Shown piece after piece: positions 1 to 25,104 of a stretch of DNA of 64,000 bases (its first letter is position 1; every line of letters starts with the position of its first letter). Source of the stretch: Cryptosporangium aurantiacum. GTDB lineage: Bacteria; Actinomycetota; Actinomycetes; Mycobacteriales; Cryptosporangiaceae. The stretch lies in NCBI RefSeq assembly GCF_900143005.1, contig NZ_FRCS01000001.1, forward strand, positions 620,001-684,000. The letters run 5' to 3'. The position numbers and the translations under genes are program-made. The notes beneath the pieces were generated by a model, which was not told the origin of the DNA, made no database searches, and saw only the letters and a list, made by a program, of their open reading frames with translations.

Positions 1-1428
1 ACCGGTCTTCAGGCCCGCCTTGTCGGCCGCGGAACCGCTGGTCACCTGGGCGATCTGGGCGCCGGTGCCGCTCTGGGTGTCCTGCGCGCTGACGCCGAGC
101 GTGGCGTGCTCGGCGGTGCCGTCCTCGATCAGCTGCTTGGCGACGTTCAGCGCCGTGTCGGAGGGGATCGCGAAGCCGACGCCGATGTTGCCGGACTGGG
201 ACTCCTGCTGGCCGAAGCCGGACGAACCGCTGGAGACCGTGGCGATCGCGGAGTTGATGCCGATCACGCGGCCGGAGAGGTCGACGAGGGCGCCACCGGA
301 GTTGCCCGGGTTGATCGCCGCGTCGGTCTGCACCGCGTCGAGGACCGTGTTCTGGTCGGCGGTGCTCCCGGTGCGCACCGGGCGGTTGAGTGCGCTGACG
401 ATGCCCTCGGTGACGGTGTTGGAGAGACCCAGCGGGGCGCCGATCGCGAGCACGGTCTGGCCGGTCTTGACCGTGGACGAGGCGGCGAACGTCGCCGGAG
501 TGAGCCCGCTCGCGTCGCTGACCTTGATCACCGCGATGTCGGAGGACGGGTCGCGGCCGACGATCGTCGCGGAGCGGGTCTCGCCGTTCGCGAGCGTCAC
601 GGTGATCGTGCCGCCGTCCGCGGCCGCTTCGACCACGTGGTTGTTCGTGATGATGTGGCCGGAGCTGTCGAGCACCACGCCGGAGCCGGTGCCTGCGCCC
701 GAGCTCGCGGTGACCGCGATCGTGACGACGCTCTTCAGCGCGGTCGCGGCGGCCTTCTCGACGCTGCCGGTGTCGCTGGCCCTGGTGGCGGCGGTCGACG
801 TCTCCTGGTTGATCGTGACGCCGTTGCCGCTGTTGCGGTCGCTGACCGCGACGCCCACGGCGGCGCCGGTGCCACCGGCGACCAGCGCGAGGACCAGCGC
901 GCCGCCGGCGATCGCGAGCGCGAGGGGGCCGCGGCGACGGGCGGGCGCCGGGGCCGGCGTGCCGAGCGGGGTGGTCGGGTGGCTCGCGCCACCGGCCGTC
1001 CACGCCGGGAACGGCCCGGTCTGATGCGGCCCGGTCTGATGCGGCCCGGTCTGATGCGGCCCGCCCGGCGCGGACCCGAAGTGCCCGGGCTGGCCGAACT
1101 GCCCGGTGACGCCCGGGGCAGCCGGGCCGCCGGCGGCGTGCGCGGCGCTCGGGGCGCCCTGCACGTGCGCGGCGCCGGGCGCGGGAACCGCGCCGGTCGC
1201 GGCGGCCGGGGCCGCCGAGGCGCTCGGCGCGGGGGCGGGCGTTGGCTGTGAGGAGGGGGACTGGGACGGGGCGGGCGCCTGGGGCGCCGCCCACGGGGAG
1301 GACGCGTCCGAGGGGCGCGAGCTCGGCTGCTGAGCACCCGAGGGGAGCACGCGAGAGGGATCGGTCGGCGGCGTGCCGGCCTGGTCACCGCCGGTGCCGG
1401 CTGCGGAGGAGCGGTGCGATTCGTCCAT
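1..1428 (-). CDS. HtrA/DegP-like S1C serine protease with PDZ domain (3' end outside window)
   Basis: The frame is open from an ATG at 1428 to the window edge, so the C-terminus is missing. Residues 1-160 are a Pro/Ala/Ser/Gln-rich cytoplasmic-type tail, 166-190 one membrane helix after a run of Arg, then a trypsin-like domain with the triad His264 (NNHVV), Asp297 (SSDIAV) and Ser377 (GNSGG). A PDZ domain begins near residue 430. This is the membrane-anchored HtrA layout common in actinobacteria, where the enzyme degrades misfolded envelope proteins. The tail contains a three-fold HQTGP repeat. The gene follows the cysH terminator at 1480-1500, so it is probably its own unit. Confidence 0.9.
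   Translation of the reverse strand, partial: MDESHRSSAAGTGGDQAGTPPTDPSRVLPSGAQQPSSRPSDASSPWAAPQAPAPSQSPSSQPTPAPAPSASAAPAAATGAVPAPGAAHVQGAPSAAHAAGGPAAPGVTGQFGQPGHFGSAPGGPHQTGPHQTGPHQTGPFPAWTAGGASHPTTPLGTPAPAPARRRGPLALAIAGGALVLALVAGGTGAAVGVAVSDRNSGNGVTINQETSTAATRASDTGSVEKAAATALKSVVTIAVTASSGAGTGSGVVLDSSGHIITNNHVVEAAADGGTITVTLANGETRSATIVGRDPSSDIAVIKVSDASGLTPATFAASSTVKTGQTVLAIGAPLGLSNTVTEGIVSALNRPVRTGSTADQNTVLDAVQTDAAINPGNSGGALVDLSGRVIGINSAIATVSSGSSGFGQQESQSGNIGVGFAIPSDTALNVAKQLIEDGTAEHATLGVSAQDTQSGTGAQIAQVTSGSAADKAGLKTG
1012..1062. repeat. 15-bp tandem repeat inside the protease tail
   Basis: Three perfect copies of CGGCCCGGTCTGATG (1012-1026, 1027-1041, 1042-1056) and a 6-base partial fourth copy. 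On the minus strand they encode a repeated HQTGP pentapeptide in the disordered N-terminal tail. The in-frame 15-bp unit can gain or lose copies without a frameshift. Confidence 0.9.
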
Positions 1429-1550: not shown

Positions 1551-2276
1551 TCAGAGGTGAATACCGCACTCCGTCTTCTCGGACTCCGACCACCGACCGG
1601 CCCGCCGGTCCTCGCCCAGCTGGACCGGACGCGTGCACGGCGCGCACCCGATCGACAGGAATCCGCGGTCCACCAGCGGGTTGACGATCACGTTCCGCTC
1701 GGCGACGAACCGGTCGACGTCGTCCTGGGTCCAGCACGCCAGCGGGTTCACCTTGATCTTGTTGCGACGCGTGTCGACGCCGATCACCGGCGTGTGGCGC
1801 CGGGCGAACGACTCGTCACGCCGCAGCCCCGAGGCCCAGGCGTCGTACGGCGCCAGCCCGCGGTCGAGCGGTTCGACCTTGCGCATCGCGCAGCAGGAGT
1901 CCGAGTCGCGCGCGTACAGGCTCTGGCCGTACTGGATGTTCTGCTGGGCGACGGTCAGCTCCGGCTTCACGGTGACGACCGTGACGTCGAGCTCGGCCGC
2001 GACCCGGTCACGCGTCTGGAGCGTCTCCGCGAAGTGGTAACCGGTGTCCAGGAACACCACGTCGATCCCCGGCACGGCCTCGGCGGCGAGCGTCGCGAGG
2101 ACGGCGTCGCCCATCGAGGACGTCAAGCAGAGCCGGTCGCCGAACGTGTCGCCCGCCCAGCGGAGCACCTCCACCGGGTGGGCACCTTCGAGCGCGGCCG
2201 ATGCTTCTTCGGCCAGCGCGCGGAGAGCCGACAGATCCCGTACCTCGACGTCCGGCCTTGCGAGCATGTCGGTCAT
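1551..2276 (-). CDS. cysH: APS/PAPS reductase CysH, iron-sulfur type
   Basis: 241 aa. It reduces adenylylsulfate (or PAPS) to sulfite with thioredoxin or a similar donor. Cys128-Cys129 and Cys211/Cys214 (CAPC) form the pattern that binds a [4Fe-4S] cluster in assimilatory APS reductases. Cys237 in the C-terminal ECGIH motif is the nucleophile that carries the S-sulfo intermediate. The CC/CxxC cluster pattern favours APS over PAPS as substrate, an inference from the family. It is the last gene of the leftward operon, 4 bases after the zinc ribbon gene stop, with a hairpin downstream. Confidence 0.95.
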   Translation of the reverse strand: MTDMLARPDVEVRDLSALRALAEEASAALEGAHPVEVLRWAGDTFGDRLCLTSSMGDAVLATLAAEAVPGIDVVFLDTGYHFAETLQTRDRVAAELDVTVVTVKPELTVAQQNIQYGQSLYARDSDSCCAMRKVEPLDRGLAPYDAWASGLRRDESFARRHTPVIGVDTRRNKIKVNPLACWTQDDVDRFVAERNVIVNPLVDRGFLSIGCAPCTRPVQLGEDRRAGRWSESEKTECGIHL

Positions 2277-2280
2277 CGCG

Positions 2281-2526
2281 TCACCTCTCTGAGTCCGCAG
2301 CTGCGTCTGCCCACGCAGCCGTCCCGGTCCGGCCGGAAGGGCCGGACGGGTCGTCGTCTAATTCGGTGGTCGCTCCTGCCGCGCCACGGCGGCCTAGACC
2401 GACGTACTTCAACGTCCACACCCGTGTGCAGGCGTCACAGCGCCACTGGCCGTGGTGCTCACCGTCGGGACGGATGTCCTCCTCGCCGCAGTAGGGGCAA
2501 TAGAAGGGGGCCGCCCGCTCGGTCAC
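2281..2526 (-). CDS. small zinc ribbon protein of the sulfite reductase operon
   Basis: 81 aa from the GTG at 2526, whose GTGA overlaps the sulfite reductase stop; another GTG at 2535 is possible. Two CxxC pairs (CPYC and CDAC) about 20 residues apart, with conserved aromatic residues between, form a zinc ribbon. The C-terminal half is acidic and probably disordered. Small proteins of this type sit between the sulfite reductase and cysH genes in many actinobacteria. The function is unknown; a role in metal or cluster delivery or in electron transfer to either neighbour is a guess from position. Confidence 0.8.
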   Translation of the reverse strand: MTERAAPFYCPYCGEEDIRPDGEHHGQWRCDACTRVWTLKYVGLGRRGAAGATTELDDDPSGPSGRTGTAAWADAAADSER

Positions 2527-4232
2527 TGCAACCACGCCTCGTCGGCGCGGGCGACGTAGCCGGCGAAGCGCTCGTTCGGTTCGCGGCGTTCCAGATAGCC
2601 GCGGAGGATCCGCTCGACGTAGTCGGGCATCTCGTCCGCGGTGACCTTCAAACCACGGAACTTCCGGCCGAACGCGGCGTTCGCGCCGAAGTGGCCGCCC
2701 AGATGGACCTGGAAGCCCTCGACCTGGTTGCCCTCGTCGTCACGGACGATCGAGCCCTTGAAACCGACGTCAGCGGTCTGGAACCGGGCGCACGAGTTCG
2801 GACAGCCGTTGATGTTGATCGTGATCGGCTCGTCGAACTCCGGGAGCCGCTTCTCCAGCTCCCGGTAGAGCGTGTCGGCGCGACCCTTGGTCTCGACGAT
2901 CGCCAGCTTGCAGAACTCGATGCCGGTGCAAGCCATCGTGCCGCGCCGGAACGCGCTGGGTTTGACCTGCAGGTCGTGGGTGGCCAGCTCGTCGATGGCC
3001 GCCTCGACGTCCGCGGGGTCGACGCCGAGGAGCACGAGCTTCTGCTGTGCGGTGGCCGCGATCCGGCCGTCACCGAGCCGGTCGGCCAGCTCGGCGACCG
3101 CGCTCAGCGTCGTACCGGACAGCCGGCCCGCGCGCGGGGCGAAGCCGAGCGCGACGTTGCCGTCGCGCATCGGGGTGATCCCGACGTGGTCGCGCTGGTC
3201 CTGGATCGGGACGCCGGGCGGCGGGCCGTCGGGGAGCTTCTGCTTCAGGTACTCGGTCTCGAGCACCTCGCGGAACTTCTCCGGGCCCCAGTCGGCCAGC
3301 AGGAACTTGAGCCGGGCGTGCGTGCGCGACCGCCGGTAGCCGTAGTCGCGGAAGATGCCGACGACGCCTGCCCAGGCGGCCTCCACCTGGTCGGGCCGGA
3401 TGAAGACGCCGAGCCGCTCGGCGAAGCGCGGGTTCGTCGACAGACCGCCGCCGACCCAGAGGTCGTAGCCGCGCTCGCCGTCGGCGTTCACCACGCCGAC
3501 GAACGCCACGTCGTTGATCTCGTGGTTCGTGCAGTGCTCGGCGCAGCCGGAGATCGAGCTCTTGAACTTGCGCGGCAGGTTCGAGAACGCCGGGTCGCCG
3601 ATGTACCGGTCGACCACGGCGCGCAGCGGCTCGGTCGCGTCGAGGATCTCGGTCTCCAGCTCGCCGGCGAGCGGGCAGCCGAGGATCACGCGCGGCGTGT
3701 CACCGCAGGCTTCGGTGGTGGAGAGCCCGACACCCTCGAGCCGGCGCCAGATCTCCGGCACGTTCTCGATCTCGATCCAGTGCAGCTGGATGTTCTGCCG
3801 GTCGGTGACGTCGGCCACGTCGCGGCCGAACTCGGTCGCGATCCCGGCGATCACCCGCAGCTGCTCGGACGTGAGCCGCCCGCCGTCGATCCGGACGCGC
3901 AGCATGAAGTAGCGGTCGTCGAGCTCCTCCGGCTCCAGGATCGCGGTCTTGCCGCCGGGGATGCCGGGAGCGCGCTGGGTGTAGAGCCCGAACCAGCGCA
4001 TCCGGCCGCGCAGGTCTTGCGGGTCGATCGAGTCGAAGCCGCCGCGTGCGTAGATGGTTTCGATGCGCTCGCGGACGGTGAGCCCGTCCGCGTCCTTCTT
4101 CATCTGTTCGTTCTTGTTGAGCGGCTCGCGGTAGCCCAGGGCCCACTGGCCCTGGCCGCGAGGACGGCCGCTGCCGGCGCGGGCGGCGCGCGCGGGCCGG
4201 GGACTGTCCGGCGTGCTGGTCGGCACGGCCAT
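2523..4232 (-). CDS. sirA: ferredoxin-dependent sulfite reductase (SirA/NirA type)
   Basis: 569 aa. Six-electron reduction of sulfite to sulfide, with siroheme and a [4Fe-4S] cluster. Two ferrite-reductase half domains precede the cluster ligands Cys435, Cys441 (ACTGIEFC), Cys477 and Cys481 (NGCPNSC). Tyr84 and Cys176 lie 92 residues apart, the same spacing as the covalent Tyr69-Cys161 pair of the Mycobacterium tuberculosis enzyme, which supports sulfite over nitrite as substrate. The position beside cysH points the same way. It is the first structural gene of the leftward operon, 108 bases after a leader peptide. The first 30 residues are basic and disordered. Confidence 0.95.
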   Translation of the reverse strand: MAVPTSTPDSPRPARAARAGSGRPRGQGQWALGYREPLNKNEQMKKDADGLTVRERIETIYARGGFDSIDPQDLRGRMRWFGLYTQRAPGIPGGKTAILEPEELDDRYFMLRVRIDGGRLTSEQLRVIAGIATEFGRDVADVTDRQNIQLHWIEIENVPEIWRRLEGVGLSTTEACGDTPRVILGCPLAGELETEILDATEPLRAVVDRYIGDPAFSNLPRKFKSSISGCAEHCTNHEINDVAFVGVVNADGERGYDLWVGGGLSTNPRFAERLGVFIRPDQVEAAWAGVVGIFRDYGYRRSRTHARLKFLLADWGPEKFREVLETEYLKQKLPDGPPPGVPIQDQRDHVGITPMRDGNVALGFAPRAGRLSGTTLSAVAELADRLGDGRIAATAQQKLVLLGVDPADVEAAIDELATHDLQVKPSAFRRGTMACTGIEFCKLAIVETKGRADTLYRELEKRLPEFDEPITININGCPNSCARFQTADVGFKGSIVRDDEGNQVEGFQVHLGGHFGANAAFGRKFRGLKVTADEMPDYVERILRGYLERREPNERFAGYVARADEAWLQ

Positions 4233-4340
4233 AGCTGGTTACCTCACAGGGGTCGGACCGCGCCCGCGGCGCTCACCCCGGTGGTTCGGGGGCGCAAGGG
4301 CAGAAAGCGGTCGGGAGACGGACGAGGGGCGTCTGTACGG

Positions 4341-4421
4341 TCAGGCCGGACAGGCGGCGCTGATCACCCGCTGCAGGTCTACATGCAGGCGGGCGACCAA
4401 GAGGGTGCCTCGCGTCGTCAC
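4341..4421 (-). CDS. leader peptide of the sulfite reductase operon (putative cysteine attenuator)
   Basis: 26 codons from GTG 4421 (or 30 from ATG 4433) to TGA at 4341-4343. The peptide carries Arg11, His13-Val14-Asp15, Arg18-Val19, Ser21-Ala22 and Cys24, the RxHVDxxRVxSAxC pattern of actinobacterial leader peptides found before sulfur metabolism genes. It has no convincing Shine-Dalgarno, so it may be read from a leaderless transcript. It ends 108 bases before the sulfite reductase start. In the known family, ribosome stalling at the Cys codon when cysteine is scarce is thought to relieve attenuation. Confidence 0.8.
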   Translation of the reverse strand: MTTRGTLLVARLHVDLQRVISAACPA

Positions 4422-4478
4422 GTCTAAAAGCATCGCACAGCGCGCCGACAGTAGCCAGATGTTGGGAAACGGTGCTCA

Positions 4479-4495
4479 CCTACTGGAATAGTAGG
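4479..4495. promoter_or_regulatory. 17-bp palindrome between the divergent sulfur operons
   Basis: Perfect 6-bp arms CCTACT and AGTAGG around GGAAT. A second, overlapping inverted repeat pairs GGAAT (4485-4489) with ATTCC (4497-4501). The site lies midway between the two leader peptides, about 15 bases upstream of a candidate rightward -35 box. It is a likely operator for a dimeric regulator controlling both operons. The regulator is not identified. Confidence 0.6.
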
Positions 4496-4509
4496 CATTC
4501 CGCTACCGG

Positions 4510-4538
4510 TTGGCCGGGGCGTTTTGCTGTGTCATCAT
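4510..4538 (+). promoter_or_regulatory. candidate promoter of the cysC operon
   Basis: TTGGCC (4510-4515), a 17-base spacer and CATCAT (4533-4538), each 4 of 6 matches to the vegetative consensus. The -10 ends 8 bases before the leader peptide ATG, which would make the transcript leaderless. Confidence 0.4.
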
Positions 4539-4546
4539 CGGCAACC

Positions 4547-4642
4547 ATGACCGGCCGTACCCGCCCTGCTTCGGCGATGCTGACCACGCGTCGGCACGTC
4601 GACTTCCTGCGCGTCTCCAGCGCAGTGTGTCGCCTGAGCTGA
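4547..4642 (+). CDS. leader peptide of the cysC-cysD-cysN operon (putative cysteine attenuator)
   Basis: 31 codons from ATG 4547 to TGA 4640-4642; an internal ATG at 4577 would give 21. Arg15, His17-Val18-Asp19, Arg22-Val23, Ser25-Ala26 and Cys28 repeat the RxHVDxxRVxSAxC pattern of the leftward leader at identical spacing. There is no ribosome binding site upstream; a candidate -10 box lies 8 bases before the ATG. About 260 bases of potentially structured RNA separate it from cysC. The shared motif on both sides of one divergent promoter region makes chance very unlikely. Confidence 0.85.
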   Translation: MTGRTRPASAMLTTRRHVDFLRVSSAVCRLS

Positions 4643-4826
4643 GCGCGGCTTCTGGCGTTCCGCGAAGGCGGCTTTTGGGTGGGTTTCCCCTCCTGGCCTT
4701 CGGTCGGCTCCGGTCCGACCACGTCCGGCTCGCGCAGACGGATCGTTTCCCCTGGGTAGACGTGCGATGAGACCCCTTTGCGGGCGCTCGGACGCGCGGT
4801 CGTGCCCCCGTTGCGGAACGTCCGGC

Positions 4827-4862
4827 GGACAATGCAGATGTCCAATGCCTGCACATCTGTCC
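4827..4862 (+). other. hairpin in the cysC leader RNA
   Basis: CAGATGT (4835-4841) pairs with ACATCTG (4853-4859), and the outer GGA (4827-4829) can pair with TCC (4860-4862) across an asymmetric bulge. It lies between the leader peptide and the cysC Shine-Dalgarno (AGGAGA near 4891), where an attenuator or anti-attenuator would be expected. No U-run is present. Confidence 0.4.
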
Positions 4863-4903
4863 GTTGGGCCGGAGTTCCTCCCCCAGGTCAGGAGAATCGC
4901 GCG

Positions 4904-5509
4904 ATGCCGACCGCATCGACTGCCGCTCGCACAGAGAGTGGCCCCGTCGGTACCGTAGCTGTGGCAGATCCCACAGTGGCCGGTGCCACAGTCTGGCTCA
5001 CCGGGCTGCCGAGTGCAGGCAAGACCACCGTGGCGACCGCGGTCGCCGCGCGCCTGCGCGACACCGGTCGCCGGGTCGAGGTCCTCGACGGGGACGCCGT
5101 GCGCGAGCACCTCTCCGCCGGACTCGGTTTCAGCCGCGCCGACCGGGACACGAACGTGGCGCGGATCGGCTTCGTCGCCGAGCTGCTCGCGCGCAACGGC
5201 GTCCTGGTGTTCGCCGCCGTCATCTCGCCCTACGCCGCCGCCAGGGACGCCGTCCGCGCCCGGCACGTCGCGAGCGGCACCCCGTACCTCGAGGTCCACG
5301 TCGCCACGCCGGTCGAGGTGTGCAGCGTCCGGGACGTCAAGGGCCTCTACGCCAAGCAGCGTGCCGGTGAGATCGCCGGCCTCACCGGGGTGGACGACGC
5401 CTACGAGGCGCCCACCGCGCCGGAGCTCGTGCTCCGCACCGAATCGTCCGCTCTCGACGCGTCCGTGGACGCGGTGCTCGCCGCGTTGTCCGAAAGGGGC
5501 CTGCTGTGA
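4904..5509 (+). CDS. cysC: adenylylsulfate kinase CysC
   Basis: 201 aa. Phosphorylates APS to PAPS with ATP. The P-loop GLPSAGKTT lies near residues 34-42, followed by the LDGD motif typical of APS kinases. ATG 4904 was chosen because AGGAGA lies about 7 bases upstream; an in-frame ATG at 4778 would add an arginine-rich stretch with no similarity to the family. It is a stand-alone kinase, not fused to CysN. It overlaps cysD by GTGA. With an APS-type CysH next door, PAPS may mainly serve sulfotransferases, an inference from the gene set. Confidence 0.95.
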   Translation: MPTASTAARTESGPVGTVAVADPTVAGATVWLTGLPSAGKTTVATAVAARLRDTGRRVEVLDGDAVREHLSAGLGFSRADRDTNVARIGFVAELLARNGVLVFAAVISPYAAARDAVRARHVASGTPYLEVHVATPVEVCSVRDVKGLYAKQRAGEIAGLTGVDDAYEAPTAPELVLRTESSALDASVDAVLAALSERGLL

Positions 5510-6444
5510 CCACCCTCTCGACCGAGTTGAACCTCCAGCACCTCGAGGACGCGCGGGACGCAGCGCTCACCGCGCTCGAGGACGAGTCGATCCACATCCT
5601 CCGCGAGGTGGTCGGCAGCTTCGAGCGTCCGGTGCTGCTGTTCTCCGGCGGCAAGGACTCGATCGTCATGCTGCGGCTGGCGGAGAAGGCGTTCTCGCCG
5701 GGCCGGATCCCGTTCCCGGTGATGCACGTCGACACCGGCCACAACTTCCCCGAGGTCATCGAGTTCCGCGACCGGCGCGCGGCCGAGCTGGGCCTCGACC
5801 TCGTCGTCGCCTCGGTGCAGGACGCGATCGACCGCGGCCGGGTCAGCGAGCGTCCGGGCCAGTCCCGCAACCCGCTGCAGACGGTTCCGCTGCTCGACGC
5901 GATCACCGACAACAAGTTCGACGCCGTCCTCGGCGGCGCCCGCCGGGACGAGGAGAAGGCCCGCGCCAAGGAGCGGGTGTTCTCGATCCGCGACGAGTTC
6001 GGCCAGTGGGACCCGCGCAACCAGCGTCCGGAGCTCTGGGACCTCTACAACGGGCGGATCGCCCCGGGCGAGCACGTGCGGATCTTCCCGCTGTCGAACT
6101 GGACCGAGCTGGACATCTGGCGCTACATCGCGCGGGACGGCATCGAGGTGCCGAGCATCTACTACGCGCACGAGCGCGAGGTCTTCGACCGCGACGGCAT
6201 GGTGCTCGCGGTGACGCCGTTCACCCCGCCGCGCGACGGCGAGCAGGTCCGGGTCGAAACCGTCCGGTACCGCACGGTCGGCGACGCCACCTGCACCGGA
6301 GCGGTCCGCTCGACCGCCCGCACGGTGGACGAGGTCATCGCCGAGACCGCGACCAGCCGGTTGACCGAGCGCGGCGCCACCCGCGCCGACGACCGCGCGA
6401 GCGAGGCCGCCATGGAGGACCGCAAGCGCGAGGGATACTTCTAG
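5506..6444 (+). CDS. cysD: sulfate adenylyltransferase small subunit CysD
   Basis: 312 aa. The catalytic subunit of ATP sulfurylase makes APS from ATP and sulfate with CysN. The PP-loop SGGKDS is at residues 47-52, and the family's HVDTGHNFPE stretch follows. The C-terminal region ends in the basic KREGYF tail typical of CysD. The GTG start overlaps the cysC stop, and cysN begins 2 bases after the cysD stop, so the four genes are probably one transcript under the Cys leader. Confidence 0.97.
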   Translation: MTTLSTELNLQHLEDARDAALTALEDESIHILREVVGSFERPVLLFSGGKDSIVMLRLAEKAFSPGRIPFPVMHVDTGHNFPEVIEFRDRRAAELGLDLVVASVQDAIDRGRVSERPGQSRNPLQTVPLLDAITDNKFDAVLGGARRDEEKARAKERVFSIRDEFGQWDPRNQRPELWDLYNGRIAPGEHVRIFPLSNWTELDIWRYIARDGIEVPSIYYAHEREVFDRDGMVLAVTPFTPPRDGEQVRVETVRYRTVGDATCTGAVRSTARTVDEVIAETATSRLTERGATRADDRASEAAMEDRKREGYF

Positions 6445-6446
6445 AC

Positions 6447-7703
6447 ATGTCTGATCTGCTACGCGTCGCCACCGCAGGGTCGGTGGACGACGGTAAGAGC
6501 ACGCTGATCGGACGCCTGCTCCACGACTCGAAGAACGTGTTCGCCGACCAGTTCGACGCGGTCGAGGCGGCGTCCCGGCGCCGTGGTCTGGACGCCGCCG
6601 ACCTGGCGCTGCTCACCGACGGCCTGCGCGCCGAGCGGGAGCAGGGCATCACGATCGACGTCGCCTACCGCTATTTCGCGACGCCGCGTCGGACGTTCGT
6701 GCTCGCCGACACCCCCGGCCACGTCCAGTACACCCGGAACATGGTGACCGGGGCGTCCACCGCCGACGTGGCCGTCGTCCTGGTCGACGCCCGGCACGGC
6801 CTGGTCGAGCAGTCCCACCGGCACGCCGCGGTGGCCGCGCTGCTCGGCGTCGGGCACGTGGTCCTCGCGGTCAACAAGATGGACCTGGTCGACTTCTCCG
6901 AGGAGGTCTACGACCGGATCGTCGCCGACTTCGACGTGCTCGCCGACGAGCTTGGCATCCGCTCGGTGACCGCGATCCCGGTCTCGGCGCTGCACGGCGA
7001 CAACATCGTCGAGCCGTCCGAGAACCTGAGCTGGTACGCGGGGCAGACGCTGCTCGAGCACCTGGAGACCGTGCCGGTGCCGCCCCGCGGTGGCCAGGTC
7101 GGCGCGCGGTTCCCGGTCCAGCTCGTCATCCGGCCCCGCTCGGCCGAGCACCCGGACTACCGGGCCTACGCCGGGCGGGTCGCGGCAGGCGTCCTGCGGG
7201 TCGGCGACGAGGTGGTCGTGCTGCCCTCGGGCCGGAAATCCCGGATCGCCGGCATCGACACCCACGACGGTTCGCTGGACGAGGCGGCAACCGGCCGCTC
7301 GGTGGCGGTACGGCTGGAAGACGACGTCGACGTGGCCCGCGGTGACCTGCTGGCCGCGGCGCCGGACGCCCCGGAGCCGGTACGGCAGCTCACCGGCCGA
7401 GTCTGTGTTCTCGCCGAGCGTCAGGTGCGGGCCGGCGACCGGTTCCGTCTGCGGGCGGGGACCCGGGAGGTCCGTGCGATCGTCGGCTCGGTCGCCGACC
7501 GGCTCGACGTCACCACGCTCAAGCGTGAAGACGCCGACGCCCTCGAGCTCAACGACATCGGCGACGTGACTCTGCGGCTGGCCGAGCCGGTCGCCGTCGA
7601 CCCGTACGCGCTGTCCCGGGGCACCGGCTCGTTCCTGCTAATCGACGAGGCCACCGGCGCCACCGTTGCGGCCGGCATGGTCGAGCAGCCACCGGCGGTG
7701 TGA
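6447..7703 (+). CDS. cysN: sulfate adenylyltransferase GTPase subunit CysN
   Basis: 418 aa. An EF-Tu-like GTPase that drives APS synthesis by CysD. G1 GSVDDGKST (11-19), G3 DTPGH (88-92) and G4 NKMD (143-146) are present, followed by two beta-barrel domains. ATG 6447, 2 bases after cysD, starts directly at the GTPase fold; the frame is open far upstream but that part is a shadow of cysC and cysD. There is no fused APS kinase domain, matching the separate cysC. Confidence 0.96.
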   Translation: MSDLLRVATAGSVDDGKSTLIGRLLHDSKNVFADQFDAVEAASRRRGLDAADLALLTDGLRAEREQGITIDVAYRYFATPRRTFVLADTPGHVQYTRNMVTGASTADVAVVLVDARHGLVEQSHRHAAVAALLGVGHVVLAVNKMDLVDFSEEVYDRIVADFDVLADELGIRSVTAIPVSALHGDNIVEPSENLSWYAGQTLLEHLETVPVPPRGGQVGARFPVQLVIRPRSAEHPDYRAYAGRVAAGVLRVGDEVVVLPSGRKSRIAGIDTHDGSLDEAATGRSVAVRLEDDVDVARGDLLAAAPDAPEPVRQLTGRVCVLAERQVRAGDRFRLRAGTREVRAIVGSVADRLDVTTLKREDADALELNDIGDVTLRLAEPVAVDPYALSRGTGSFLLIDEATGATVAAGMVEQPPAV

Positions 7704-24922: not shown

Positions 24923-25002
24923 GTTCCGCAGCAGTACCGTTGGCTAAAACCGGAGTACCGGACGATCCGCGGGCCCGTGCTGAGCCGGTCCTCGGTAGTA
25001 CG

Positions 25003-25027
25003 CACTTGTGACGTTCGGTCACAAGTG
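25003..25027 (+). promoter_or_regulatory. pnp 5' leader hairpin
   Basis: CACTTGTGAC (25003-25012), loop GTTCG, GTCACAAGTG (25018-25027). The perfect 10-bp stem is only half G/C and lies 77 bases before the pnp ATG. In E. coli a leader stem cut by RNase III allows PNPase to repress its own mRNA; the position here is analogous. Confidence 0.55.
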
Positions 25028-25104
25028 GGTTCGATCGAAGACCGGCACGAGATGCCGCTCGGGTCCTCCGCATCGCCTGGTACCACAACCAGGAGGATCT
25101 AAAT

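Follow-up and report, generated by a model that had tools for sequence, protein, structure and literature searches.

Cysteine-rich upstream ORFs are known from mycobacteria, where they have been proposed to act by attenuation (PMC4633059). The polycysteine attenuators of mycobacteria, which are leaderless, are referred to in four further articles (PMC9031893, PMC13236596, PMC9094748, PMC10117436). Leaders of the trp/leu/ilv type in Streptomyces lividans are short, mostly leaderless, and located before amino-acid genes (PMC8079986). A further leader family is already named in a database, namely NCBIfam NF042934, "putative leader peptide" (cis_reg_atten), which has a curated cut-off of 27 bits. 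Literature searches, which covered few subscription journals, listed no paper on a codon rule, a mechanism or a UGU rule for NF042934. What is new here is the bias toward UGU at the last cysteine codon of the motif carried by these leaders. Judging from comparisons of sequence, the family, which is widespread in actinobacteria, probably switches sulfur operons on when cysteine is short.

The window (the whole 64-kb stretch of DNA analyzed here) carries two such leaders, which are encoded on opposite strands within the 671 bases that extend from the ATG of nirA (4232) to the ATG of cysC (4904). The leaders and the adjoining genes are arranged as follows.

1551..2276, minus strand: cysH-type (P)APS reductase, with a Pfam PAPS reductase domain
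2523..4232, minus strand: nirA/sir-type sulfite/nitrite reductase gene, identified by Pfam
4341..4421, minus strand: leader ORF before nirA, from GTG (4421) to TGA (4341), 26 codons plus TGA, peptide VTTRGTLLVARLHVDLQRVISAACPA
4350..4391, minus strand: 14-codon motif of this leader, RLHVDLQRVISAAC, with candidate sensor codon UGU at 4352-4350
4547..4642, plus strand: leader ORF before cysC, from ATG (4547) to TGA (4642), 31 codons plus TGA
4589..4630, plus strand: 14-codon motif of this leader, RRHVDFLRVSSAVC, with candidate sensor codon UGU at 4628-4630
4904..5509, plus strand: cysC, APS kinase by Pfam, with Shine-Dalgarno (SD) sequence AGGAG at 4890-4894
5506..6444, plus strand: cysD-type protein with a PAPS_reduct domain by Pfam, taken from its position as the small subunit of sulfate adenylyltransferase
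6441..7703, plus strand: cysN, GTPase subunit of sulfate adenylyltransferase, by Pfam (EF-Tu-like GTPase) and also NCBIfam

A first-pass annotation of this DNA had reported a 26-codon and a 31-codon ORF, each encoding RxHVDxxRVxSAxC ahead of a sulfur operon. Both ORFs are present as described, and the domains found by Pfam place nirA-cysH after the minus-strand leader and cysCDN after the plus-strand leader. Pfam also identifies a CbiX protein on the plus side, after cysC, cysD and cysN. The minus-strand leader has an in-frame ATG at 4433 as a possible alternative start, but GTG is the start kept in a more distant genome (G004).

A six-frame search of the window gives two occurrences of the RxHVDxxRVxSAxC motif, whereas 60 shuffled windows give none, and residue frequencies predict about 4e-6 occurrences per window. 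When compared with NF042934, the minus-strand leader scores 30.8 bits as a 25-aa piece and 30.1 bits in a 30-aa form, whereas the plus-strand leader scores 31.5 bits. All of these values are above the cut-off, and both peptides align over nearly the whole model. By our own reading, members of this family are short ORFs located directly before sulfur-related genes, and in the window it is nirA and cysC that follow. The first-pass annotation had stated that leaders of this pattern precede sulfur genes, which is borne out by the loci examined, where NF042934 members mostly lie before such genes. It had also proposed an alignment of this region across related genomes. Both ORFs are kept in three genus mates and in G004, and the minus-strand leader is conserved in 4/4 genus genomes. 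No Rfam family is found at either leader at the gathering threshold. Elsewhere in the window, an Actino-pnp RNA (RF01688) at positions 24984-25046 scores above its gathering score.

The genome that contains the window yields six matches at E<=0.01, five of which are above the cut-off, and its leaders recur at six places in five loci. At the same E-value, 141 of the 150 genomes in a sample of the order match (127 above the cut-off). For a sample of the class, 154 of 246 genomes match at E<=1e-4 (151 above the cut-off). None of the 14 control genomes matches in the order and class searches, and at a looser E<=1 six of the 14 match, none above the cut-off. Finally, 12 of the 198 genomes in a sample of the phylum match, all 12 of which belong to the class of the window. 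The leaders collected come from at least 33 families, as read from the genome tables. A leader with UGU also resides near the end of one IMG/VR viral contig (L273, positions 73-114, minus strand).

A match for nirA is found in 49 of 61 genomes. The window and the upstream regions from 40 of the other 48 genomes give 41 nirA regions for comparison, in which a leader is present on the nirA side in 35, pointing the other way in 12, in both orientations in 7, and in neither in 1. Thus, the divergent pair is a recurrent arrangement (7/41 nirA regions) that is not unique to the window. Among 80 cysC loci, nearly all from Streptomyces, no leader matching the pattern is found in the available stretch of at most 2.5 kb upstream, and in these loci cysC is presumably not the first gene.

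Simple patterns for sulfur genes and the genes that usually adjoin them capture 113 of 140 distinct ORFs located downstream of the leaders. The patterns cover SiR, APS kinase, PAPS reductase, and, assigned by these patterns alone, rhodanese, DUF4395, CysO-like, CysM and cysteine-dioxygenase-like proteins. SiR represents 44 of the 113, a number that is inflated because 40 regions were fetched for nirA. Fourteen other downstream proteins (10 + 4) were put to Pfam. Sulfur supply is a fitting role for four of these, namely a sulfatase, a SiR-like protein and two LLM monooxygenases, and a possible one for a flavin reductase, a symporter and several solute-binding proteins. A POR domain, an FAD protein, a Trans_reg_C protein and Cons_hypoth698 are not plainly sulfur genes. 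One sub-threshold leader of 23.3 bits (L006, G000:C2:336335-336385) precedes a possibly cysteine-controlled regulator that has a Trans_reg_C domain at its C terminus.

The choice of cysteine codon is best evaluated in a collection of leaders that was assembled with codons left free. The collection patterns demand Cys at position 14, Asp at position 5, and Arg or Lys at position 8, and the loci are nirA neighborhoods plus the better-scoring family matches rather than a random sample. The order and class samples give 164 distinct leaders, in which the Cys at position 14 is encoded by UGU in 160 cases and by UGC in 4, and it is encoded by UGU in all 25 further leaders. Combined, the final Cys codon of the motif is UGU in 185 of 189 leaders, a total that leaves out three Cys-less members and two matches that end short of the Cys (G254 and G244). 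The leaders are related and taken from the best-scoring matches, such that tests are not independent, and no P value is given. All eight class loci missed by an earlier, stricter pattern also carry UGU. Hence the near-terminal Cys codon, which the first-pass annotation had regarded as the sensor, is indeed special.

This codon is otherwise infrequent. UGU constitutes 8.5% of the Cys codons in 30 nirA genes, 62 of 684 (~9%) in 191 neighboring ORFs, and 31 of 228 in class loci, where the latter two backgrounds used the ORF with the highest third-position GC and are therefore biased against UGU. The leaders themselves provide an internal control. In 150 leaders, Cys is encoded by UGC in 57/60 cases at position 7, in 36/45 cases at position 12, and in 136/171 cases at all positions other than 14. 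Among the Asp, His and other C/T-ending codons of these leaders, T accounts for 0 to 50% depending on the position. Cys residues past position 14, such as those of polycysteine tails, show a raised share of UGU (21/54), and so the enrichment is not confined to one place. Local folding was considered as a cause of the bias and rejected, since a change from UGU to UGC shifts the MFE about as control T to C changes do.

The four UGC exceptions (L072, L073, L074 and L078) all come from family f14, in which another genome carries UGU (L036), and they indicate that UGU is not strictly required. Three leader-like ORFs (L297, L298 at G203:C1:1355838-1355891, and L295) keep the motif without its Cys, with Ser, UGA and UAG found once each at this place. 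These members have perhaps decayed, or perhaps sense something else.

The base that follows UGU is C or U in 156 of the 164 leaders (149 of 157 for sense codons) and in 22 of the 25 further leaders, compared to 38% pyrimidine after Cys in ORFs. The next codon is CGN in 69 of the 164, and the pyrimidine may reflect a preference for Arg or Pro at this site. A pyrimidine also comes after other Cys codons of the motif (119 of 132), because the residues that follow these are fixed. For these two reasons, the pyrimidine is weaker evidence than UGU.

Conservation extends to the peptide. In a table of 69 leaders from the order (79 before near-duplicates were dropped), Arg at position 1 does not vary, although the pattern leaves it free, and neither do Asp 5 and Arg 8, which it demands or nearly demands. 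The third positions of the codons for these three residues vary. A looser scan that leaves the distance to the Cys free gives 160 matches, 150 of which have Cys at position 14, and the other ten look like chance, save one Cys-less leader. Ser 11 is encoded by AGY in 49 of 50 cases, which may be a result of ancestry because switches between AGY and TCN need two changes.

In arrest peptides, conserved residues are located at a constant distance from the codon at which the ribosome stalls, and these leaders have conserved residues at a constant distance from their Cys codon. RRxVDxxRVxSAx might stall the ribosome from within the exit tunnel, with free cysteine or Cys-tRNA as the effector and the codon being secondary. 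Residues that are kept while synonymous sites vary in the 69 leaders, the Cys that remains at position 14 even when spacing is not fixed, and the three Cys-less members that retain the motif peptide are all consistent with nascent-chain arrest. However, a single tRNA-Cys, with anticodon GCA, should read both UGC and, through a G-U wobble, UGU, and so arrest by the peptide alone gives no reason for the presence of UGU in 185 of 189 leaders, which leaves this explanation doubtful. A related proposal, which we put forward tentatively and at less than even chance, is that nascent RRxVDxxRVxSAx, retained within the exit tunnel in its fixed register, makes the ribosome hypersensitive at UGU, a weak codon with a pyrimidine usually next to it. 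If so, one Cys codon would report on Cys-tRNA throughout the class, and the polycysteine leaders of mycobacteria would be derived from this arrangement.

The RNA of the leaders is also more structured than dinucleotide shuffles. This is true both for the motif-coding stretch (-60..0; mean z -1.23, n=164) and for the first 60 nt from UGU (0..60; mean z -0.77, n=164). The excess fades in windows located further downstream (z -0.52 for 10..70 and -0.35 for 20..80, then near zero), and windows that span UGU have z near zero. Relative to synonymous recodings, structure within the ORF shows a slight excess (mean z -0.51, se 0.08). Both comparisons would fit a motif that is kept as a hairpin or pairing element, and not for its peptide or codon. 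This constraint at the level of RNA only is nevertheless very unlikely, given that the third positions of conserved residues drift, that folding fails to explain UGU, and that amino acids account for most of the structure. A common motif hairpin is, for this last reason, weakened as the main cause of conservation. In the nirA region of the genus, RNAalifold predicts 58 pairs with only three two-sided changes and an unfavorable covariation term (+1.19), which makes this structure weak evidence.

The leaders were also compared for pairing with the SD of the downstream gene. In the 145 of 164 leaders usable for this test, the segment from UGU to +30 has a mean of -11.41 with its own SD versus -10.36 with swapped SDs (sd of means 0.22, 50 swaps). 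No such excess is seen for the motif (-10.34 vs -10.15) or for +30..+60 (-9.60 vs -10.13). The gain is about 2 kcal/mol in the 50 leaders with spacers of up to 90 nt, and 0.3-0.7 in the 95 leaders with longer spacers. In a clear example (L182), GGCUCCUGA, located at the leader stop, is opposed by UCAGGAGCC at the SD, and L177, L157, L158 and L167 are further clear cases. SD pairing is an average effect, and the spacers in the window exceed 90 nt, which places them outside the range of clearest gain. The cysC leader of the window gives a predicted duplex of -17.2 kcal/mol with the cysC ribosome-binding site (RBS), and the nirA leader is not among the best 36 cases listed. Two short elements in the window are relevant to this pairing.

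4643..4648, plus strand: GCGCGG directly after the stop of the plus-strand leader, identical in 4/4 genus genomes
4317..4329, minus strand: element CCCCTCGTCCGTC after the stop of the minus-strand leader, identical in 4/4 genus genomes, with variable flanks

GCGCGG is part of a segment that is able to pair with the cysC RBS, and it presumably contributes to this interaction. The CCCCTCGTCCGTC element can pair with the 5′ end of its leader, and by eye its CCUC appears able to pair with GAGG of the nirA SD (4245-4242). It starts 23 nt after the UGU of the nirA leader, a distance at which a stalled ribosome would barely reach it or not reach it at all. When 136 of the 164 leaders are folded, modeled SD accessibility is 0.363, and a ribosome placed on UGU raises it slightly, to 0.402. 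A block on the stop codon gives 0.399 and a block elsewhere 0.374, and with the ribosome on UGU accessibility falls in some leaders (L118 and L135). By the comparison with swapped SDs, the signal favors RBS sequestration.

Classical transcription attenuation, with a terminator and an antiterminator, is another candidate mechanism. The cysC leader of G004 (L014/L043) carries a textbook intrinsic terminator, GCCGGCCUA..UGGGCCGGC-UUUUU, the 5′ arm of which starts 5 nt downstream of the first base of UGU, and the structure enriched just after UGU (0..60) is also compatible with this mechanism. However, terminator-like sites are found in only 15 of 164 leaders versus 9.4 (range 4-16) in 20 shuffle rounds, and we reject U-run terminators as the general mechanism. 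No terminator-like site is found in window positions 4150-4950, and so attenuation by transcription termination, a form that the attenuators proposed in the first-pass annotation could have taken, is not supported for the window. As an account of the family, classical attenuation is unlikely.

Initiation of the leaders fits the expectations for leaderless translation. No SD-like GGAG, GAGG or AGGA is found in the 15 bases before either start in the window, as the first-pass annotation had noted, and its suggestion of leaderless starts agrees with -10-like hexamers located 7 or 8 nt upstream and with enrichment across the family. The sequences found between the two leaders are listed here.

4429..4434, minus strand: -10-like hexamer GATGCT, 7 nt before GTG, suggesting a leaderless start
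4479..4495, strand-neutral: inverted repeat CCTACT-GGAAT-AGTAGG, halfway from one leader promoter to the other
4510..4538, plus strand: promoter-like TTGGCC-17-CATCAT, ending 8 nt before ATG, suggesting a leaderless start

The minus-strand hexamer is identical in three of four genus genomes and reads CATGCT in the remaining one (G003), and for the plus-strand promoter TTGGC and the -10 stretch are identical in 4/4. A sigma-70 scan returns no promoter, TTGGCC-17-CATCAT on the plus strand included. Across the family, TAnnnT lies 6-8 nt before an in-frame ATG or GTG in 74 of 164 leaders (control 3%), and [TCG]AnnnT does so in 140 of 164 (control 20%), whereas an SD-like motif occurs at any candidate start in 30 of 164. 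The leaders of the window and of the family thus look leaderless.

The inverted repeat is a candidate for a shared operator, and a transcription factor bound there might co-regulate both arms and relegate the leaders to a minor role. Its position between the promoters and its identity in 3/4 genus genomes are in accord with such a role. Yet the repeat is not seen in G004, and a search of the genome that allows up to 3 mismatches gives only one copy of a 22-base pattern containing it, whereas the leaders are found at six places in five loci. We consider control mainly through this site to be quite improbable.

Taken together, we think it likely that both upstream ORFs are leaderless and sense cysteine in cis, with a stall at UGU that frees the downstream RBS. 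The transcript would begin with the start codon or very close to it, and translation of the leader by a 70S ribosome would follow immediately. The conserved RRxVDxxRVxSAx would then reside inside the ribosome as UGU enters the A site. A pyrimidine on the 3′ side has a weak effect on decoding, and UGU should be a slow codon because of its wobble reading and the pyrimidine that usually comes next. It would therefore be sensitive to the supply of Cys-tRNA, where the bias is observed and the kinetics are predicted. When cysteine is ample, the ribosome would finish, usually 2-4 codons past UGU, and leave, whereupon RNA around the leader stop would pair with the RBS of the gene and keep expression of the operon low. 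In some loci, the freed RNA would form a terminator instead. When cysteine is short, the ribosome would wait at UGU and mask this RNA, and the operon would be turned on. A common signal, rather than control of one arm by the other, would make the two arms respond together.

These findings allow a precise prediction to be made for a family that a database names "putative leader peptide". If UGU is replaced by its synonym UGC in one of these leaders, which are about 30 codons long, the control of sulfur operons by cysteine should become weaker, and this prediction covers a class of bacteria that make many antibiotics. If true, then how does one codon suffice where textbook attenuators use runs, and why is the peptide conserved in a device thought to count codons?

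Comparisons with known systems place these questions in context. The S. lividans leaders (PMC8079986) share with those of the window their short peptides and, in most cases, leaderless translation, the latter being predicted for the window. They differ in that the sensor codons are often repeated and that some have U-run terminators, and the text consulted describes no conserved peptide motif and calls none of the 8 leaders that it lists cysteine-dependent. The mycobacterial polycysteine attenuators are more similar in that they are short ORFs, leaderless (as is predicted here), and located before sulfur genes, but they have contiguous Cys codons, whereas the window peptides have one Cys each. 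Genomes of f8 carry LTKRRAVDLCRVAGCCCCCCSC, which exhibits the same RRxVDxxRV frame with UGU at position 14. Against the models for the polycysteine Ms4527A / Ms5788A types, the window leaders score 24.3-26.9 bits (NF042936), and the plus-strand leader alone gives 19.9 bits (NF042933), all below the cut-offs of 45 bits for these models. For the mycobacterial polycysteine attenuators, a model of RBS sequestration was reportedly presented by Canestrari in 2020. That model fits the phrase "translation attenuation" used in PMC13236596. A ribosome made hypersensitive at UGU by its nascent peptide would be a hybrid of codon-counting attenuation and arrest peptides.
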